NCBI GenBank assembly: GCA_000720805.1
Contig: JODI01000071.1
Coordinates: 1-44,794, forward strand
Length of the DNA stretch: 44,794 nt
Origin: Streptomyces violaceoruber
GTDB lineage: Bacteria > Actinomycetota > Actinomycetes > Streptomycetales > Streptomycetaceae
Reading direction: 5' to 3'
The position numbers were made by a program, and so were the translations under genes. This document shows positions 11,804 through 34,510 of this stretch, piece by piece (position 1 is the first letter of the stretch; every line of letters begins with the position of its first letter). A model generated the notes under the pieces. That model was not told the origin of the DNA, did not search any database, and worked only from the letters and a program-made list of their open reading frames with translations.

Positions 11804-13126
11804 TCAGCTGATCGGCGCGTACAGCACGCCGAGCTTGTCCAGTTCGTCGCCCGAGCGGCCCGTGAAGCCGGTGATCTGCCAGCCCGAGGGCGCTGTGAAC
11901 GTCTTCGTGGCCGTGGTCGGTGTACCGGAGGACAGCGTGCGGCCCTGGTCCGTGGTGAAGGACGCCGAGAAGAGCCGGGTGCGGCCGTCCTTCTGGCCCT
12001 GGGTCAGCTTCACGGAGGTGAGGTGCTCGCCGGAGGCGAGGGTGAGGGAGGTGGCGGTGCCGCCCGCACCGCCGTGGGACAGGGTCGTGCCGCCGTCGAG
12101 CGTGAGGGTGAGCGCGTCGAGGCGGGCGCTGCCGCGCAGGGTCAGCGTGCGGGGCGACGGGGACGCGGGCAGGTCGTCCGCGTCGTTGAACGCCGTGCCG
12201 TGCGGGCCCCCGAAGAAGTCGCTCGACTTCAGGGAGGAGTTGAGGGTGTAGGAGAAGCCGACGGTGTGCGGGAAGTGGTCCGACAGGTTGCCGCCGGCGG
12301 AGTCCAGGAAGGACGCCCACTCGTTGTGGTACCGGGTGGCGTTCAGGCTCAGCAGCTTGTTGCCTCGGTAGAGGACCTTGTCCACCACCTCGCAGTCGTC
12401 GGTGGGCGCCGTCGTCGGGCACAGCAGCGCGTCCGCGCCCTGCGTCGGCCGGACGCCACCCTTCACCAGCTTCACCCACGCGTCGGTCAGACCGTTCTCG
12501 TCGGCCAGGGTGCGGATGTTGTCGCCGGAGCGGGTGTAGCGCGTGTTGGTGTCACCCATCACGATCACCGCGTTGCCGGCGGAGTTCGCCTGGATGAAGT
12601 CCGACAACTGCTCGATGTTGGCCCGGCGGGCGGCCAGCGCGTCGGCGGTGTCGTCGGCGTTGGTGTGCACGTTGTAGAGGTCCACGAAGACGCCCTCGGC
12701 CAGCCGCACCCGGGCGAGCGAGAACCCCTTCGGGGTGAGGCAGTTGGTGCCGGTGCAGTCGTTCCACTTCACCCGCTCGAAGTCGTCGAAGGCGTGGTCC
12801 GAGAGGGTGTTGATGCCGTCCCCGAAGGGCACACCACCGCTGGTCGCGGTGCGGTACGGGTGGTTGTCGCCCGCGTACAGCGCCGCGTGGTAGTTGAAGT
12901 CCTCCTGGACGTTGACGATGTCGTAGGCCGCCAGACGCGGGGAGATCAGCGGGGTGTTCGTCTCCGGGTGGCCCGAGCTCAGGCCCTCCGGCAAACCGGC
13001 GACGTTGTACGTCAGGACGTTGAAGGAGCCGGTGGTGGCGGCCGCCGCGGGGGTCGCGCCGGCGGTGACCGTCAGGCCGGTGAGGGTCAGGGCGGCCGCC
13101 GCGAGGGTACCGAGGAGTCTTCTCAT
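11804..13126 (-). CDS. Secreted sphingomyelinase-like phosphodiesterase (EEP fold) with jacalin-like C-terminal domain
   Basis: This 440-residue exported protein has a Sec signal ending near TPAAAA, then an endonuclease/exonuclease/phosphatase domain (about residues 33-300). The catalytic pattern is complete: Asn in LTYNVAGLP, Glu in NVQEDFNYH, the NVH block in LYNVHTNADD, MGDTNTRY, and the terminal SDHFP. This set is shared by bacterial sphingomyelinases and secreted DNases; the overall sequence looks more like the phospholipase C group. A beta-rich tail (FFGGPHGTAFNDADD to SGWQITGFTGRSGDELDKLG) looks like a jacalin-type lectin domain, which would bring it to glycans. ATG 13126 has a GA-rich region upstream. 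It ends at a shared bidirectional terminator. Confidence 0.85.
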   Translation of the reverse strand: MRRLLGTLAAAALTLTGLTVTAGATPAAAATTGSFNVLTYNVAGLPEGLSSGHPETNTPLISPRLAAYDIVNVQEDFNYHAALYAGDNHPYRTATSGGVPFGDGINTLSDHAFDDFERVKWNDCTGTNCLTPKGFSLARVRLAEGVFVDLYNVHTNADDTADALAARRANIEQLSDFIQANSAGNAVIVMGDTNTRYTRSGDNIRTLADENGLTDAWVKLVKGGVRPTQGADALLCPTTAPTDDCEVVDKVLYRGNKLLSLNATRYHNEWASFLDSAGGNLSDHFPHTVGFSYTLNSSLKSSDFFGGPHGTAFNDADDLPASPSPRTLTLRGSARLDALTLTLDGGTTLSHGGAGGTATSLTLASGEHLTSVKLTQGQKDGRTRLFSASFTTDQGRTLSSGTPTTATKTFTAPSGWQITGFTGRSGDELDKLGVLYAPIS

Positions 13127-28415: not shown

Positions 28416-31413
<2,998 letters not shown>

Positions 31414-31480
31414 CGTGAGGTTCCCCCCAACTTCTTTGCCACTGTGGCGAGTTGACCTCACTTGTGACTGCAGGAGACCC

Positions 31481-32959
31481 ATGCCCGACCTGCCGACTCC
31501 CCAGGACGCCGCCGAGGCAGCGCTGCTCTCCGAGTGCTGGGACGCCGTGCTCTCCTACGCCGACCTGTGCACGTCCGGCTCCACCACGGCCACCCAGCTG
31601 GCCACGGAGGCATTCTCCCTCGGCATGCGCGAAGCCCGCGAGGCGGAGTCCGCCACCGCCCGCGGCGCCGGCCGCCGCCCGGCCCGCCTGCCCAGGATCC
31701 CCCTGCTGCTGACCGCCGTACGCAACACGGCGGCGGCCTGGGAGGCCCAGGGCGACGGCCACAAGCTCGACCCCGAACTGCGGCTGTGGCTCAACTCCGA
31801 CAAGGCCGCCCGCTATACCGGCCCCCCGCTCAGCCGCCCGCTCGCGCTGCGCGGTCTGCGTGACCTGCAGGAACCGGACGCGGCCCTGCTCTGGCTCGCG
31901 GAGGTGGAGGCGCTGCCGCTGTCCGTCGTGGCCCGCCGGCTCGGTCTCGATCCGGCCGTCGTCGGGGACGAACTCGCCCAGGTGCGGAACCTGTTCCGGG
32001 ACCGCTGTCACCGCGCCCACCTCGACACACCGATGGACGCGCAGTGCCGCAGCTACGCCCGGCTGCTCGACGCGGTCACCCGCTCACCCGCCGCCGACAC
32101 CCCGAAGGACCTCTCCCGGCACCTCGCCCGGTGCGTGGGGTGCGCGGAGGCCGCCGCCTGTCTGCGGCTGCACGGCGGCGGACTGCCCGGGGCGCTGGCC
32201 GGCGGGGTGATCGGCTGGGGCGGCCTCGCCTACCTGGAGCGCCGCCGCCGGGCCGCCGAGGTGCGCCTGGGTGCCGGGCGCCCCGGCCCGGCCGACAGCG
32301 ACACACCCCCGAACCCCGGCGCCCACAAGGCACGCGCCGTGCGCAACGGCCTCCTCGTCGCGGCCGTCCTGGTGTCCCTGCTGGCGCTGGCCGTGTCGAT
32401 GATGCCGGGCGGCACCGACAACGGCGCCGCGCCGCCCGGTGACGCCGACCGTCAGCCGGTGGCCGGTCCCGGCGTCTCCCTCCCGTCGTCCACCATCGCC
32501 CGCTCCACCAGCTCCCCGAAGCCGTCCGACACCGCCCCGACGGCCAAGTCCGAGGCGCCGGAAGGCAGGAATCCCCGCACCACACCCCAGGGCACGGCCT
32601 CCTCCACCGCCCCGGGCGGCGGCTCCGAGGAGAAGGAGTCGCCGGCCCCGACCTGCCGCGTCACGTACGACCTGGTCAACCAGTGGCCCGACGGCTTCCA
32701 GGCCACCGTCACCGTCACCACCGAACAGGCCCTCGACTCCTGGCGGGTCGCCTGGTCCTTCCGCGACGGCCAGCGCGTCGGCCAGATGTGGGACGCCGGC
32801 TTCGTCCAGGACGGCTCCCAGGTCACCGCCACCGCCGCCGACTACAACAGGAAGGTCCCCGCGGACGGCTCCCTCGACTTCGGCTTCCTCGCGTCCTGGC
32901 AGGGCAAGAACTCCCCGGCGTACGACTTCAGGCTGAACGGGCAGAGCTGCGCGAAGTGA
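31481..32959 (+). CDS. Membrane-spanning ECF sigma factor-like / ZAS zinc motif / CBM2 fusion protein
   Basis: This 492-residue protein joins signalling and polysaccharide binding. Residues 1-180 are helical and sigma-like, ending in a region 4-type HTH (LPLSVVARRLGLDPAVVGDE, about 145-165). HLARCVGC (about 213-220) fits the H-x3-C-x2-C motif of ZAS anti-sigma domains. A span follows (NGLLVAAVLVSLLALAVSMM, about 288-307), then a Pro/Ser/Thr linker. A CBM2 domain (about 392-491) carries the paired cysteines and Trp residues of the fold (WPDGFQATVTV, WRVAWSF, SWQGKNS). Cytoplasm would hold the N-terminus and the CBM2 would face out. ATG 31481 follows AGGAGA. Fused ECF proteins of this general type are known in actinobacteria, but no role is established for this one. 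Confidence 0.82.
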   Translation: MPDLPTPQDAAEAALLSECWDAVLSYADLCTSGSTTATQLATEAFSLGMREAREAESATARGAGRRPARLPRIPLLLTAVRNTAAAWEAQGDGHKLDPELRLWLNSDKAARYTGPPLSRPLALRGLRDLQEPDAALLWLAEVEALPLSVVARRLGLDPAVVGDELAQVRNLFRDRCHRAHLDTPMDAQCRSYARLLDAVTRSPAADTPKDLSRHLARCVGCAEAAACLRLHGGGLPGALAGGVIGWGGLAYLERRRRAAEVRLGAGRPGPADSDTPPNPGAHKARAVRNGLLVAAVLVSLLALAVSMMPGGTDNGAAPPGDADRQPVAGPGVSLPSSTIARSTSSPKPSDTAPTAKSEAPEGRNPRTTPQGTASSTAPGGGSEEKESPAPTCRVTYDLVNQWPDGFQATVTVTTEQALDSWRVAWSFRDGQRVGQMWDAGFVQDGSQVTATAADYNRKVPADGSLDFGFLASWQGKNSPAYDFRLNGQSCAK

Positions 32960-33010
32960 GTCGTGGTGACCCGGCAGGCCGCCACGCCCGGGCCGTGAAG
33001 CCGTGAACGG

Positions 33011-33132: not shown

Positions 33133-34401
33133 TCACACGGTGAACCTGACGGCTTCGAGCCAGCGGTCCTTGTCCAGGCTGCCGCCGAATATGTACTTGC
33201 CGGGGGTGTCGCACCCCATGCCCAGCCATCCTCCGTCGCGAACCCACGCGTTCTGGCAGACGACGCCGTCGTTCACGGCGATGGCGAAGCCCGACATGTT
33301 CGGCGCGTCCTTCCGGGCGCTTCCGATGGAGAGGTCGACGCCGTCGACCGCACCCGTCCACGCGGTCGTCCAGCCGGCTTCCTGGATGAACTCGTTGGCG
33401 GACGTGCCCTTCGTGCCCGACACGGCGACATTGAGGGCCTTGATGGGCCGGTTCTGTCCCTCCGTGCCCGCCGTGGCGCCGTCGCACACCGGAGCCTGCC
33501 AGCCGATGCCCGTCACATAGGCCCGGTAGCAGATGTGCCGGCCCGGGCTCGCCGCGGCCAGCCGCTGGACGGCGAGCGCCGCGGTGTTCGGCGTGGGCTT
33601 GGGCGCCTGCTGCTTCGTCTGCCCGGTGCCGCTGGGGGACTTCTTCTGTGGCGGAGCCGGTGGCGGCACGGGAACCGAACTCGGCCGCTCGGGAACCGAA
33701 CTCGGCTTCTTCGCCTTGGGCTTCGCCTTGGCGGAGGGCTTCGCGCTCGTCGACGGCGGTGTGGGTCTGGCCGGGACGTAGTCGCCGCGCGGCGCGTCCG
33801 CGGACGCGCCGCCCAGGACGGTGTCGGACTCCGCGGACACCGACACGGTGTCCTTCTCCCGCTCGGAGTCGTTCGTGGCCCAGATCAGCAGCGGCACCGC
33901 GAGGAGAACCACGCCCGCGATGCCCGCTGCGGCGAGCAGCGGCTTCTTCGGGTTCCCGGAGGACAGTTCGCCCTTCCCGCGCGCTGTTCCGCCGACTAAG
34001 GGCACGCCCGCCACGGCCGCTGCCCGGGCGACCGGGGCTGCCACGGCGCCGGCCGACGCCGCCTGGGGCCGCGCGCTCGCGGACTCGGCTTCCGGCTGCG
34101 ACGACCGCTGCCGCGAAGCCGCCGCACCTGCCTCCTTCTCCTCTTCGGTCGAACCACCGGTGGTGCCGGACGGCGCGGACGCGGCTCCACCCGCCGAGGT
34201 GTCCGGTCGCGGCCGTGCCGTCGCCTCGCCCTCACCCCGAGCCGCCTTGGCGGGCTGGGGCGTGGCCGACGTGGACGTCGGGCCGGGGTCCGCTTCCACG
34301 GACCGCGGCCCGACCGCCCCTCGGACGGACGGCTCGCTCGTGGCAGCCGAGGAACTCTGCGACGATCCGTCCGGAGAGGACGGATTCTGTCGACCTGTCA
34401 T
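33133..34401 (-). CDS. Single-pass membrane protein with C-terminal ChW-type (hydrophobic W) domain
   Basis: The first 150 residues of this 422-residue protein are disordered and Ser/Ala/Pro-rich. One membrane span (PLLAAAGIAGVVLLAVPLLIWA) follows, then a Lys/Pro/Ser-rich linker. The last 140 residues form a domain with the GIGWQAP, AGTEGQNRPIKALNVAVSG and AGWTTAW patterns of clostridial hydrophobic-W repeats, which are linked to surface carbohydrate or cell-wall contact. Cysteines in ICYRAY, VCDG, VCQNAW and MGCDTP may form disulphides outside the cell. ATG 34401 was chosen over the adjacent ATG 34404 because AGGAG is better spaced. It converges on the CBM2-fusion gene, with a similar inside-span-linker-binding layout. 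No enzyme activity is evident. Confidence 0.78.
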   Translation of the reverse strand: MTGRQNPSSPDGSSQSSSAATSEPSVRGAVGPRSVEADPGPTSTSATPQPAKAARGEGEATARPRPDTSAGGAASAPSGTTGGSTEEEKEAGAAASRQRSSQPEAESASARPQAASAGAVAAPVARAAAVAGVPLVGGTARGKGELSSGNPKKPLLAAAGIAGVVLLAVPLLIWATNDSEREKDTVSVSAESDTVLGGASADAPRGDYVPARPTPPSTSAKPSAKAKPKAKKPSSVPERPSSVPVPPPAPPQKKSPSGTGQTKQQAPKPTPNTAALAVQRLAAASPGRHICYRAYVTGIGWQAPVCDGATAGTEGQNRPIKALNVAVSGTKGTSANEFIQEAGWTTAWTGAVDGVDLSIGSARKDAPNMSGFAIAVNDGVVCQNAWVRDGGWLGMGCDTPGKYIFGGSLDKDRWLEAVRFTV

Positions 34402-34510
34402 CATTCTCCTTTTGCTTTTCTACGACCCTGTCCACGATCCGACTCAAGTCGTGGAAGTCGGACCGTATCGACCGACGAGGCACGGCCGCCATCGGCGGTG
34501 CGACGAGGGG

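Follow-up and report, generated by a model that had tools for sequence, protein, structure and literature searches.

The window analysed here is the whole 44,794-nucleotide stretch of Streptomyces violaceoruber contig JODI01000071.1. On its forward strand it carries an open reading frame of 492 amino acids, with an ATG at 31481 and a stop codon ending at 32959, which an earlier note, made from the sequence alone, had read as a one-protein membrane sensor with a sigma/anti-sigma-like part inside and a cellulose-binding domain outside. A cell-wall locus with GH43, rhamnogalacturonan lyase (PL4) and GH2 genes lies to the left, at 3.7 to 23 kb, where the note had indeed seen plant cell-wall genes. 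The features of the gene and of its upstream region are as follows.

31358–31480, forward strand: conserved upstream element (promoter and/or 5′ leader), from column identity in 81 sequences
31372–31399, forward strand: gene-private motif GCTTGTCAGTTGTG-N8-GTGAAA, from a pattern search of genus genomes
31416–31461, forward strand: possible nested hairpin GTGAGGT..ACCTCAC, from the predicted fold of the leader
31470–31476, forward strand: ribosome-binding site GCAGGAG, read directly, with 7/7 columns invariant in 59 sequences
31481–32959, forward strand: whole gene, 492 aa, from the open reading frame, the ribosome-binding site and the ATG aligned in orthologs
31508–31747, forward strand: sigma2-like helical domain, degenerate (residues 10–89)
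31835–32026, forward strand: sigma4-like HTH domain with an acidic recognition helix (residues 119–182), from structural alignment
32036–32173, forward strand: ZAS/zf-HC2-like zinc site C189, H214, C218, C221, with invariant ligands
32180–32263, forward strand: GWG motif and basic juxtamembrane helices (residues 234–261), from dN/dS and predicted helices
32348–32404, forward strand: transmembrane span, about residues 290–308 (Kyte-Doolittle 2.56)
32411–32644, forward strand: Pro/Ser/Thr-rich extracytoplasmic linker, residues 311–388 (dN/dS 1.06, pLDDT 31–45)
32654–32950, forward strand: CBM2 domain, residues 392–490 (PF00553 match)

We confirmed that the gene is real and that its product consists, in this order, of a sigma2-like domain, a sigma4-like domain, a zinc site, a transmembrane span, a Pro/Ser linker and a CBM2. 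As orthologs we kept 80 CBM2-type loci out of 152, so that "81 sequences" stands below for these 80 plus the window gene. All are labelled Streptomyces, S. lincolnensis and S. coeruleorubidus among them, bar one "Actinobacteria bacterium". An ATG is found at the aligned start in 80/80 orthologs. A longer reading frame from GTG 31394, which would add an in-frame N-terminal extension, was rejected because the frame upstream of the ATG closes within 30 codons in 67 of the 80 orthologs (median, 10 open codons). The only proper Pfam match of the protein is CBM_2, accompanied by a sub-threshold MarR_2 line, and the only NCBIfam match, far below cut-off, is to the CBM end of a model for an exoglucanase.

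The zinc motif, the single membrane span, the Pro/Ser linker and the C-terminal CBM2 that the earlier note had described were all recovered. The H-x3-C-x2-C sequence HLARCVGC is exact (H214, C218, C221), and C189, which the note had not mentioned, provides a fourth ligand and completes a zf-HC2-like site. This motif, which serves as the definition of the ZAS, or class I anti-sigma, domain in the accessible part of its source (PMC7406223), is present in 81/81 CBM2-type sequences. The four ligands are invariant both in these 81 sequences and in 44/44 members of the wider family, represented in alignment and tree by 10 of the 81 CBM2-type proteins, 10 ricin-type and 24 ECF52-like ones. Pfam zf-HC2 is matched by 24 of these 44 at E ≤ 0.01, by none of the 20 members of the CBM2/ricin-type branch at E ≤ 0.1 and not by the window protein. 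Besides the strong span at about residues 290–308, there is a weaker hydrophobic stretch at residues 234–252 (Kyte-Doolittle 1.19) that had been passed over, and when the N-terminal part was folded alone helices were predicted at 234–244 and 248–261. These GWG...YL juxtamembrane helices (234–261; 32180–32263) could make a second membrane contact or form a re-entrant piece. Since K/R residues precede the main span, the sequence suggests that the N-terminus lies inside and the C-terminus outside. The linker, about residues 311–388, is disordered in the predicted model, with block pLDDT values of 31–45. The CBM2 is complete (PF00553, residues 392–490, 94.2 bits, E 6.7e-27, model positions 1–101 of 101), and it is closest to a C. 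fimi CBM2 (41% identity). W402, W437 and Y455, which we take to be the ligand-binding aromatic positions of CBM2 domains, align to Trp positions of the C. fimi domain and are invariant (81/81), as are C392 and C490. The predicted ligand is cellulose, chitin or xylan, which are indistinguishable from the sequence.

For the N-terminal part, the outcome depended on the method. The note had described a sigma-like helical region with a region 4-type HTH, to be verified by comparing residues 1–180 with sigma regions 2 and 4. Plain Pfam searches did not bear this out, as the window protein has no match to any Pfam sigma model up to E 1. Within the branch, Sigma70_r2 is matched by 0/20 members and Sigma70_r4_2 by 2/20 (best E 0.085), the 24 of the 44 family cores that match Sigma70_r2 include no CBM2- or ricin-type protein, and none of the five loci that the branch has in this genome is among the genome's 60 Sigma70_r2 matches. 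Profile-profile and fold comparison did bear it out. An hhalign comparison with ECF52-like proteins aligned 232 columns at an E of 4.7e-15, a value that holds for a single comparison, and a fold search of the N-terminal part returned ECF sigma factors as its first 17 PDB rows. The sigma4-like part superposes on region 4 of SigR with 1.5 Å rmsd over 51 columns (Foldseek E 0.69, probability 1.00) and also aligns structurally to the sigma4 domains of SigL, SigW and SigF. The N-terminal part had been folded separately because CBM2 matches swamped the search with the whole protein, in which SigG1 appeared at E 5e-3. A phmmer search of PDB sequences with an ECF52-like protein gave no match at E 0.01, and the whole-family profile retrieved lectins and CBMs, with SigF region 4 reaching no better than E 0.5. 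Sigma ancestry is thus confirmed, by profile-profile and predicted-fold comparison only: the protein shares with ECF sigma factors the sigma2/sigma4 fold and homology, and lacks their Pfam sigma2 and sigma4 matches.

The kinship with ECF52 that had been suggested is upheld by the same hhalign result and by phylogeny. The first ECF52 member to be characterised, according to the available part of a 2018 paper (PMC5826349), was SCO4117 of Streptomyces coelicolor, with the order sigma, zinc finger, transmembrane span, Pro-rich linker and carbohydrate-binding domain. The window protein has this architecture, its sigma part being followed by a zinc finger, a span, a Pro-rich extension and a carbohydrate-binding domain, and ECF52 is its nearest known kind. 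The two share sequence homology and an LW-x2-EVE motif, and Streptomyces ECF52 also has a VIGW after the zinc site; this GW motif, common to the window protein and Streptomyces ECF52, is not a conserved column over the 24 ECF52-like rows. The genome also holds an ECF52-like gene, L017, cut by a contig end, which matches Sigma70_r2 (48.1 bits) and zf-HC2. P0242, a full-length Streptomyces relative of L017, ends in an NPCBM and is recognised by the Pfam models for sigma2 (48.7 bits) and zf-HC2, whereas the window protein ends in a CBM2, has neither match and has lost key sigma residues.

Four further proteins with the same degenerate sigma-like/ZAS core are encoded in the genome: L004 (C7:150977), L002 (C7:167845), L003 (C45:5331) and L007 (C62:42793). 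They have a similar juxtamembrane motif and transmembrane span and, at E 0.1, match no Pfam sigma model; in place of the CBM2 they carry a ricin-B-type beta-trefoil lectin at the C-terminus, outside. In a tree of the 44 cores, CBM2-type and ricin-type proteins stand together, apart from the 24 ECF52-like rows (support 100/99), and the branch was again separate, from 22 ECF52-like rows, when the three long rows (L007, L035, L039) were omitted. Both trees are without an outgroup, so that the root is not fixed, and the program warns that long branches meet; the reference rows are called ECF52 for their architecture and for being homologous to the SCO4117-like type, not by the official group HMM. 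The window protein has an ECF52-like architecture and lies outside the ECF52 clade, and as a sigma factor it fails on the defining features tested. Among 101 Streptomyces genomes, 91 match its N-terminal part, with up to eight matches per genome, the weak ones probably being true ECF52, and 36 have a match of at least 55% identity (one partial), assigned to the CBM2-type by identity and not by C-terminus. Outside the genus, 36 genomes of a class-wide sample matched, and the 19 loci inspected were all nearest to ECF52. Where databases name these proteins, they mostly call them cellulose-binding or RICIN domain-containing protein (best 120 of 866 and best 120 of 1665 matches; a further list of relatives covers the best 120 of 3457). 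Relatives of L004 are mostly called RICIN domain-containing protein and some hydrolase, among the best 120 of 1665, which also include P0224, a ricin-type relative named sigma24-family protein by its source. We found no paper describing the CBM2/ricin-type branch in the open-licence literature.

The separation from working sigma factors was also seen at the level of scores and single residues. A sigma2 reference model, built from the 30 best-scoring of the 59 sigma factor matches in the genome, non-ECF ones included, gave with filters off 26.3 to 42.7 bits for 24/24 ECF52-like proteins and −3.3 to 1.4 bits for the 17 of 20 branch members reported; three of the 10 CBM2-type rows went unreported even with these settings. 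By our own alignment, we take the region 2.2 position to correspond to D403 of sigma70 and E43 to E407. Positions 403, 406, 407 and 409 of sigma70 contact the β′ coiled coil, and mutants at three of these sites only weaken core binding, according to the accessible text of PMC8321222. The region 2.2 acidic residue is Asp in 29 of the 30 reference sigma factors (Glu in one) and in 24/24 ECF52-like proteins; Asp occurs here in 0/10 ricin-type and 2/81 CBM2-type sequences, the latter having Gln (64), Glu (9) or Arg (6) instead. The region 2.3 aromatic (His not counted) is present in 30/30 reference sigma factors, 23/24 ECF52-like proteins and 0/20 branch members, and the site is Leu in 73 of the 81 CBM2-type sequences. 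These two features of ECF sigma factors, the acidic core-binding residue of region 2.2 and the aromatic of region 2.3, are thus largely missing. In the recognition helix, Glu164 is invariant (81/81), position 163 is Asp or Glu in 75/81 and the Arg that ECF52 has at 167 is lost (Gln in 71/81). When columns conserved at 80% or more in ECF52 were scored as retained if present in 80% of the branch, 3/9 were kept in regions 2.1–2.2, 3/6 in 2.3–2.4, 4/14 in the N-terminal half of sigma4, 4/16 in the HTH and 6/10 in the ZAS, all four zinc ligands among them. Given the predicted sigma fold, we infer that the sigma-poor state is derived.

We favour, at about an even chance, the reading that the protein is a sigma-derived membrane sensor and no longer a promoter-directing sigma. 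Its main rival is an active, proteolytically released sigma: a working ECF52-type fusion in which CBM2 binding would cause proteolysis or a shape change, free sigma2-sigma4 from its own ZAS and turn target genes on, as has been suggested for SCO4117. ECF52 domain order, complete zinc ligands, a predicted intact sigma fold, E43 in 79/81 sequences and the sigma24-family name of P0224 all speak for a working sigma, but the protein has lost the Asp of region 2.2, the aromatic of region 2.3 and basic residues of the recognition helix, and these losses, together with the absent Pfam sigma match, make it unlikely in our estimation. The same losses weaken the idea, put forward in the note, of a fused sigma switched by polysaccharide, so that the earlier interpretation is as a whole only partly supported. 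Core binding could nevertheless survive, since E43 is kept in 79/81, the Asp site is Glu in 9/81 and the sigma70 mutants described in PMC8321222, as far as its accessible text goes, were only weakened in core binding; the intact fold, the diversity of ECF factors and the name of P0224 are further counterpoints to the sensor reading.

Selection within the CBM2-type proteins falls mainly on the inside. A simple pooled Nei-Gojobori estimate over the 81 sequences gave dN/dS values of 0.31 for the sigma2-like domain, 0.33 for the sigma4-like domain, 0.26 for the ZAS, 0.10 for the GWG motif, 0.59 for residues 258–287, 0.30 for the transmembrane span, 1.06 for the linker and 0.70 for the CBM2. Within the protein, conservation is highest in the juxtamembrane helices (mean pairwise identity 0.95 over residues 233–257) and, among the intracellular stretches, lowest at residues 258–287. 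The intracellular part is under purifying selection, and its being the constrained part speaks against a relic. This bears on the suggestion that the protein is a wall or polysaccharide adhesion anchor, whose CBM2 would tether the cell to cellulose or chitin and whose sigma-like part would be a structural relic. The conserved aromatic strip and Cys pair of the CBM2 and a long linker predicted to be disordered would suit an anchor. A relic should, however, decay faster than the working part, whereas dN/dS is 0.10–0.33 in the cytoplasmic part (0.59 at 258–287) against 0.70 in the CBM2, and the zinc ligands never vary; we therefore hold an anchor to be improbable.

The region immediately upstream of the gene is conserved as well. 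Over 31358–31480, 65 of the 123 columns agree with the window base in 95% or more of the 81 sequences and 87 do so in 80% or more (mean identity 0.80), compared with 2/107 and 8/107 columns (mean identity 0.39) over 31251–31357. The motif GCTTGTCAGTTGTG-N8-GTGAAA occurs once each in 27 of 101 genus genomes, in all 27, by coordinates, 79–104 bp ahead of the window gene's best-matching homolog, and a reversed control pattern gave zero matches in the 101 genomes. Of the 36 genomes that carry a close homolog, the remaining 9 lack the exact motif. The window's own genome holds no second motif site with up to three mismatches and, by BLAST, no second copy of the upstream element. Such a private site would suit a gene that regulates itself or has a regulator of its own, and does not resemble a promoter shared by a regulon, because no second copy within three mismatches exists in the genome. 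For a working sigma, the conserved element could be an autoregulated promoter, but the lack of that second copy counts against a working sigma. The motif also enters a third alternative, a membrane-tethered DNA-binding regulator of one-component, ToxR-like layout that would use the sigma4 HTH only and perhaps regulate its own gene through the private motif. One motif per genome in 27/101, each just before the gene and with no second own-genome site, speaks for such a regulator, and the likeness of the HTH fold to SigR region 4 (1.5 Å over 51 columns) agrees with it; in contrast, the acidic residues of the recognition helix (Glu164 in 81/81, Asp or Glu at 163 in 75/81) and the Gln that replaces the ECF52 Arg at 167 (71/81) make it improbable.

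The leader was aligned for 59 of the 81 upstream regions; the 22 left out include L050, a near-copy, and four loci with a match at odd coordinates. Its predicted fold over 118 nt has a z-score of −3.29, which also covers a second, less conserved hairpin (about 31385–31413), and covariation is weak, with change on both sides in 3 of 19 predicted pairs. For these reasons we did not retain the hairpin as a proven RNA structure. Nor is the leader a known RNA family, the sole Rfam match up to E 1 being mir-341 at 31252–31361 (16.8 bits, gathering threshold 90), a chance match. As a family-wide operator it was likewise rejected, having no second genome copy and no clear copy in the approximately 400 bp upstream of five genes of the sister or ECF52-like kind, the start codons of the sisters being guessed; one match with three mismatches before L003 was taken as chance.

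The ancestry, the layout, the loss of canonical sigma residues, the retention of the zinc ligands and the purifying selection are established, and a mechanism can be proposed for the sigma-derived membrane sensor. A sigma2-sigma4-ZAS module of the ECF52 lineage would have been kept folded and under selection inside a single-pass membrane protein, having most likely lost core RNA polymerase binding and promoter reading. Outside, the CBM2 would bind an insoluble polysaccharide, and the signal could pass from the linker through the single span to the GWG juxtamembrane helices, a route suggested by the extreme conservation of these helices. Inside, the sigma-like/ZAS unit might then engage a partner differently, for example as a sigma mimic or with its ZAS binding another ECF sigma or an anti-sigma, this output step being a guess. 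A broader proposal, that the branch is a Streptomyces family of pseudo-sigma receptors, several per genome and derived from ECF52, whose sigma fold, emptied of polymerase and promoter contacts, serves as the output domain of lectin-type surface sensors (CBM2, ricin-type), each possibly acting by sigma mimicry or by lending its ZAS to other sigma factors, seems to us somewhat less than evenly likely.

By analogy, a single protein would here act as a transmembrane lectin sensor whose inner part is of the sigma/anti-sigma type. For ECF52 itself, the carbohydrate-binding module has been proposed to trigger proteolysis or a shape change, in the parts of the two sources available (PMC5826349, PMC8999054). 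PhyR of Alphaproteobacteria offers a comparison, as analogy only, for a sigma-like domain that binds protein by sigma factor mimicry, in the accessible text of PMC8999054, and PhyR chains make up 4 of the first 50 Foldseek rows. PhyR is a response regulator, whereas the window protein spans the membrane and combines a lectin with a ZAS of its own; at E ≤ 0.1, 0/20 branch members match the PhyR sigma models of Pfam, and a receiver domain is likewise lacking. In the RsgI/SigI system of Clostridium thermocellum, an extracellular carbohydrate-binding module is described as coupled to sigma control across the membrane, and an RsgI-like CBM chain (4b97) is among the structural matches of the window protein. 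RsgI and SigI are separate proteins, anti-sigma and sigma, whereas the window system is a single protein. ECF sigma factors fused to carbohydrate-binding tails are already known; if our reading is true, a sister branch missed by the Pfam sigma models adds a hidden layer to Streptomyces polysaccharide sensing and provides an example of a sigma factor turning into a non-sigma signalling domain.

The surroundings of the gene differ between its two sides. The gene directly upstream, at about 29.9–31.25 kb (29916–31250, forward strand), adjoins 80/80 orthologs with a median identity of 94.5%; it has no Pfam match at E 0.001, and from its Cys motif we read it as radical-SAM-like. Further upstream, an FAD-type oxidase is found near 76/80 orthologs, a ROK regulator near 70/80 and a solute-binding protein near 55/80, these counts being lower bounds as the ortholog flanks end at 8 kb. 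To the right, the ChW, TetR and NUDIX-like genes are found near 0/80 orthologs in flanks of up to 8 kb, some shorter. The ChW gene at 33133–34404 (reverse strand) adjoins the window gene and encodes a protein with a hydrophobic span, seen by eye, a linker rich in Pro and Ser and a ChW repeat at the C-terminus. Its role as a functional partner is not supported, the gene being absent from the fetched flanks of the 80 orthologs. The match to S. cellulosae NRRL B-2687 ends at 32996, just past the gene, and the DNA to the right of about 32996 looks strain-specific in this set, by insertion or rearrangement, or conceivably through an assembly join. Elsewhere in the window, the gene at 11807–13126 (reverse strand) encodes an endonuclease/exonuclease/phosphatase-type domain fused to a jacalin-like lectin domain.
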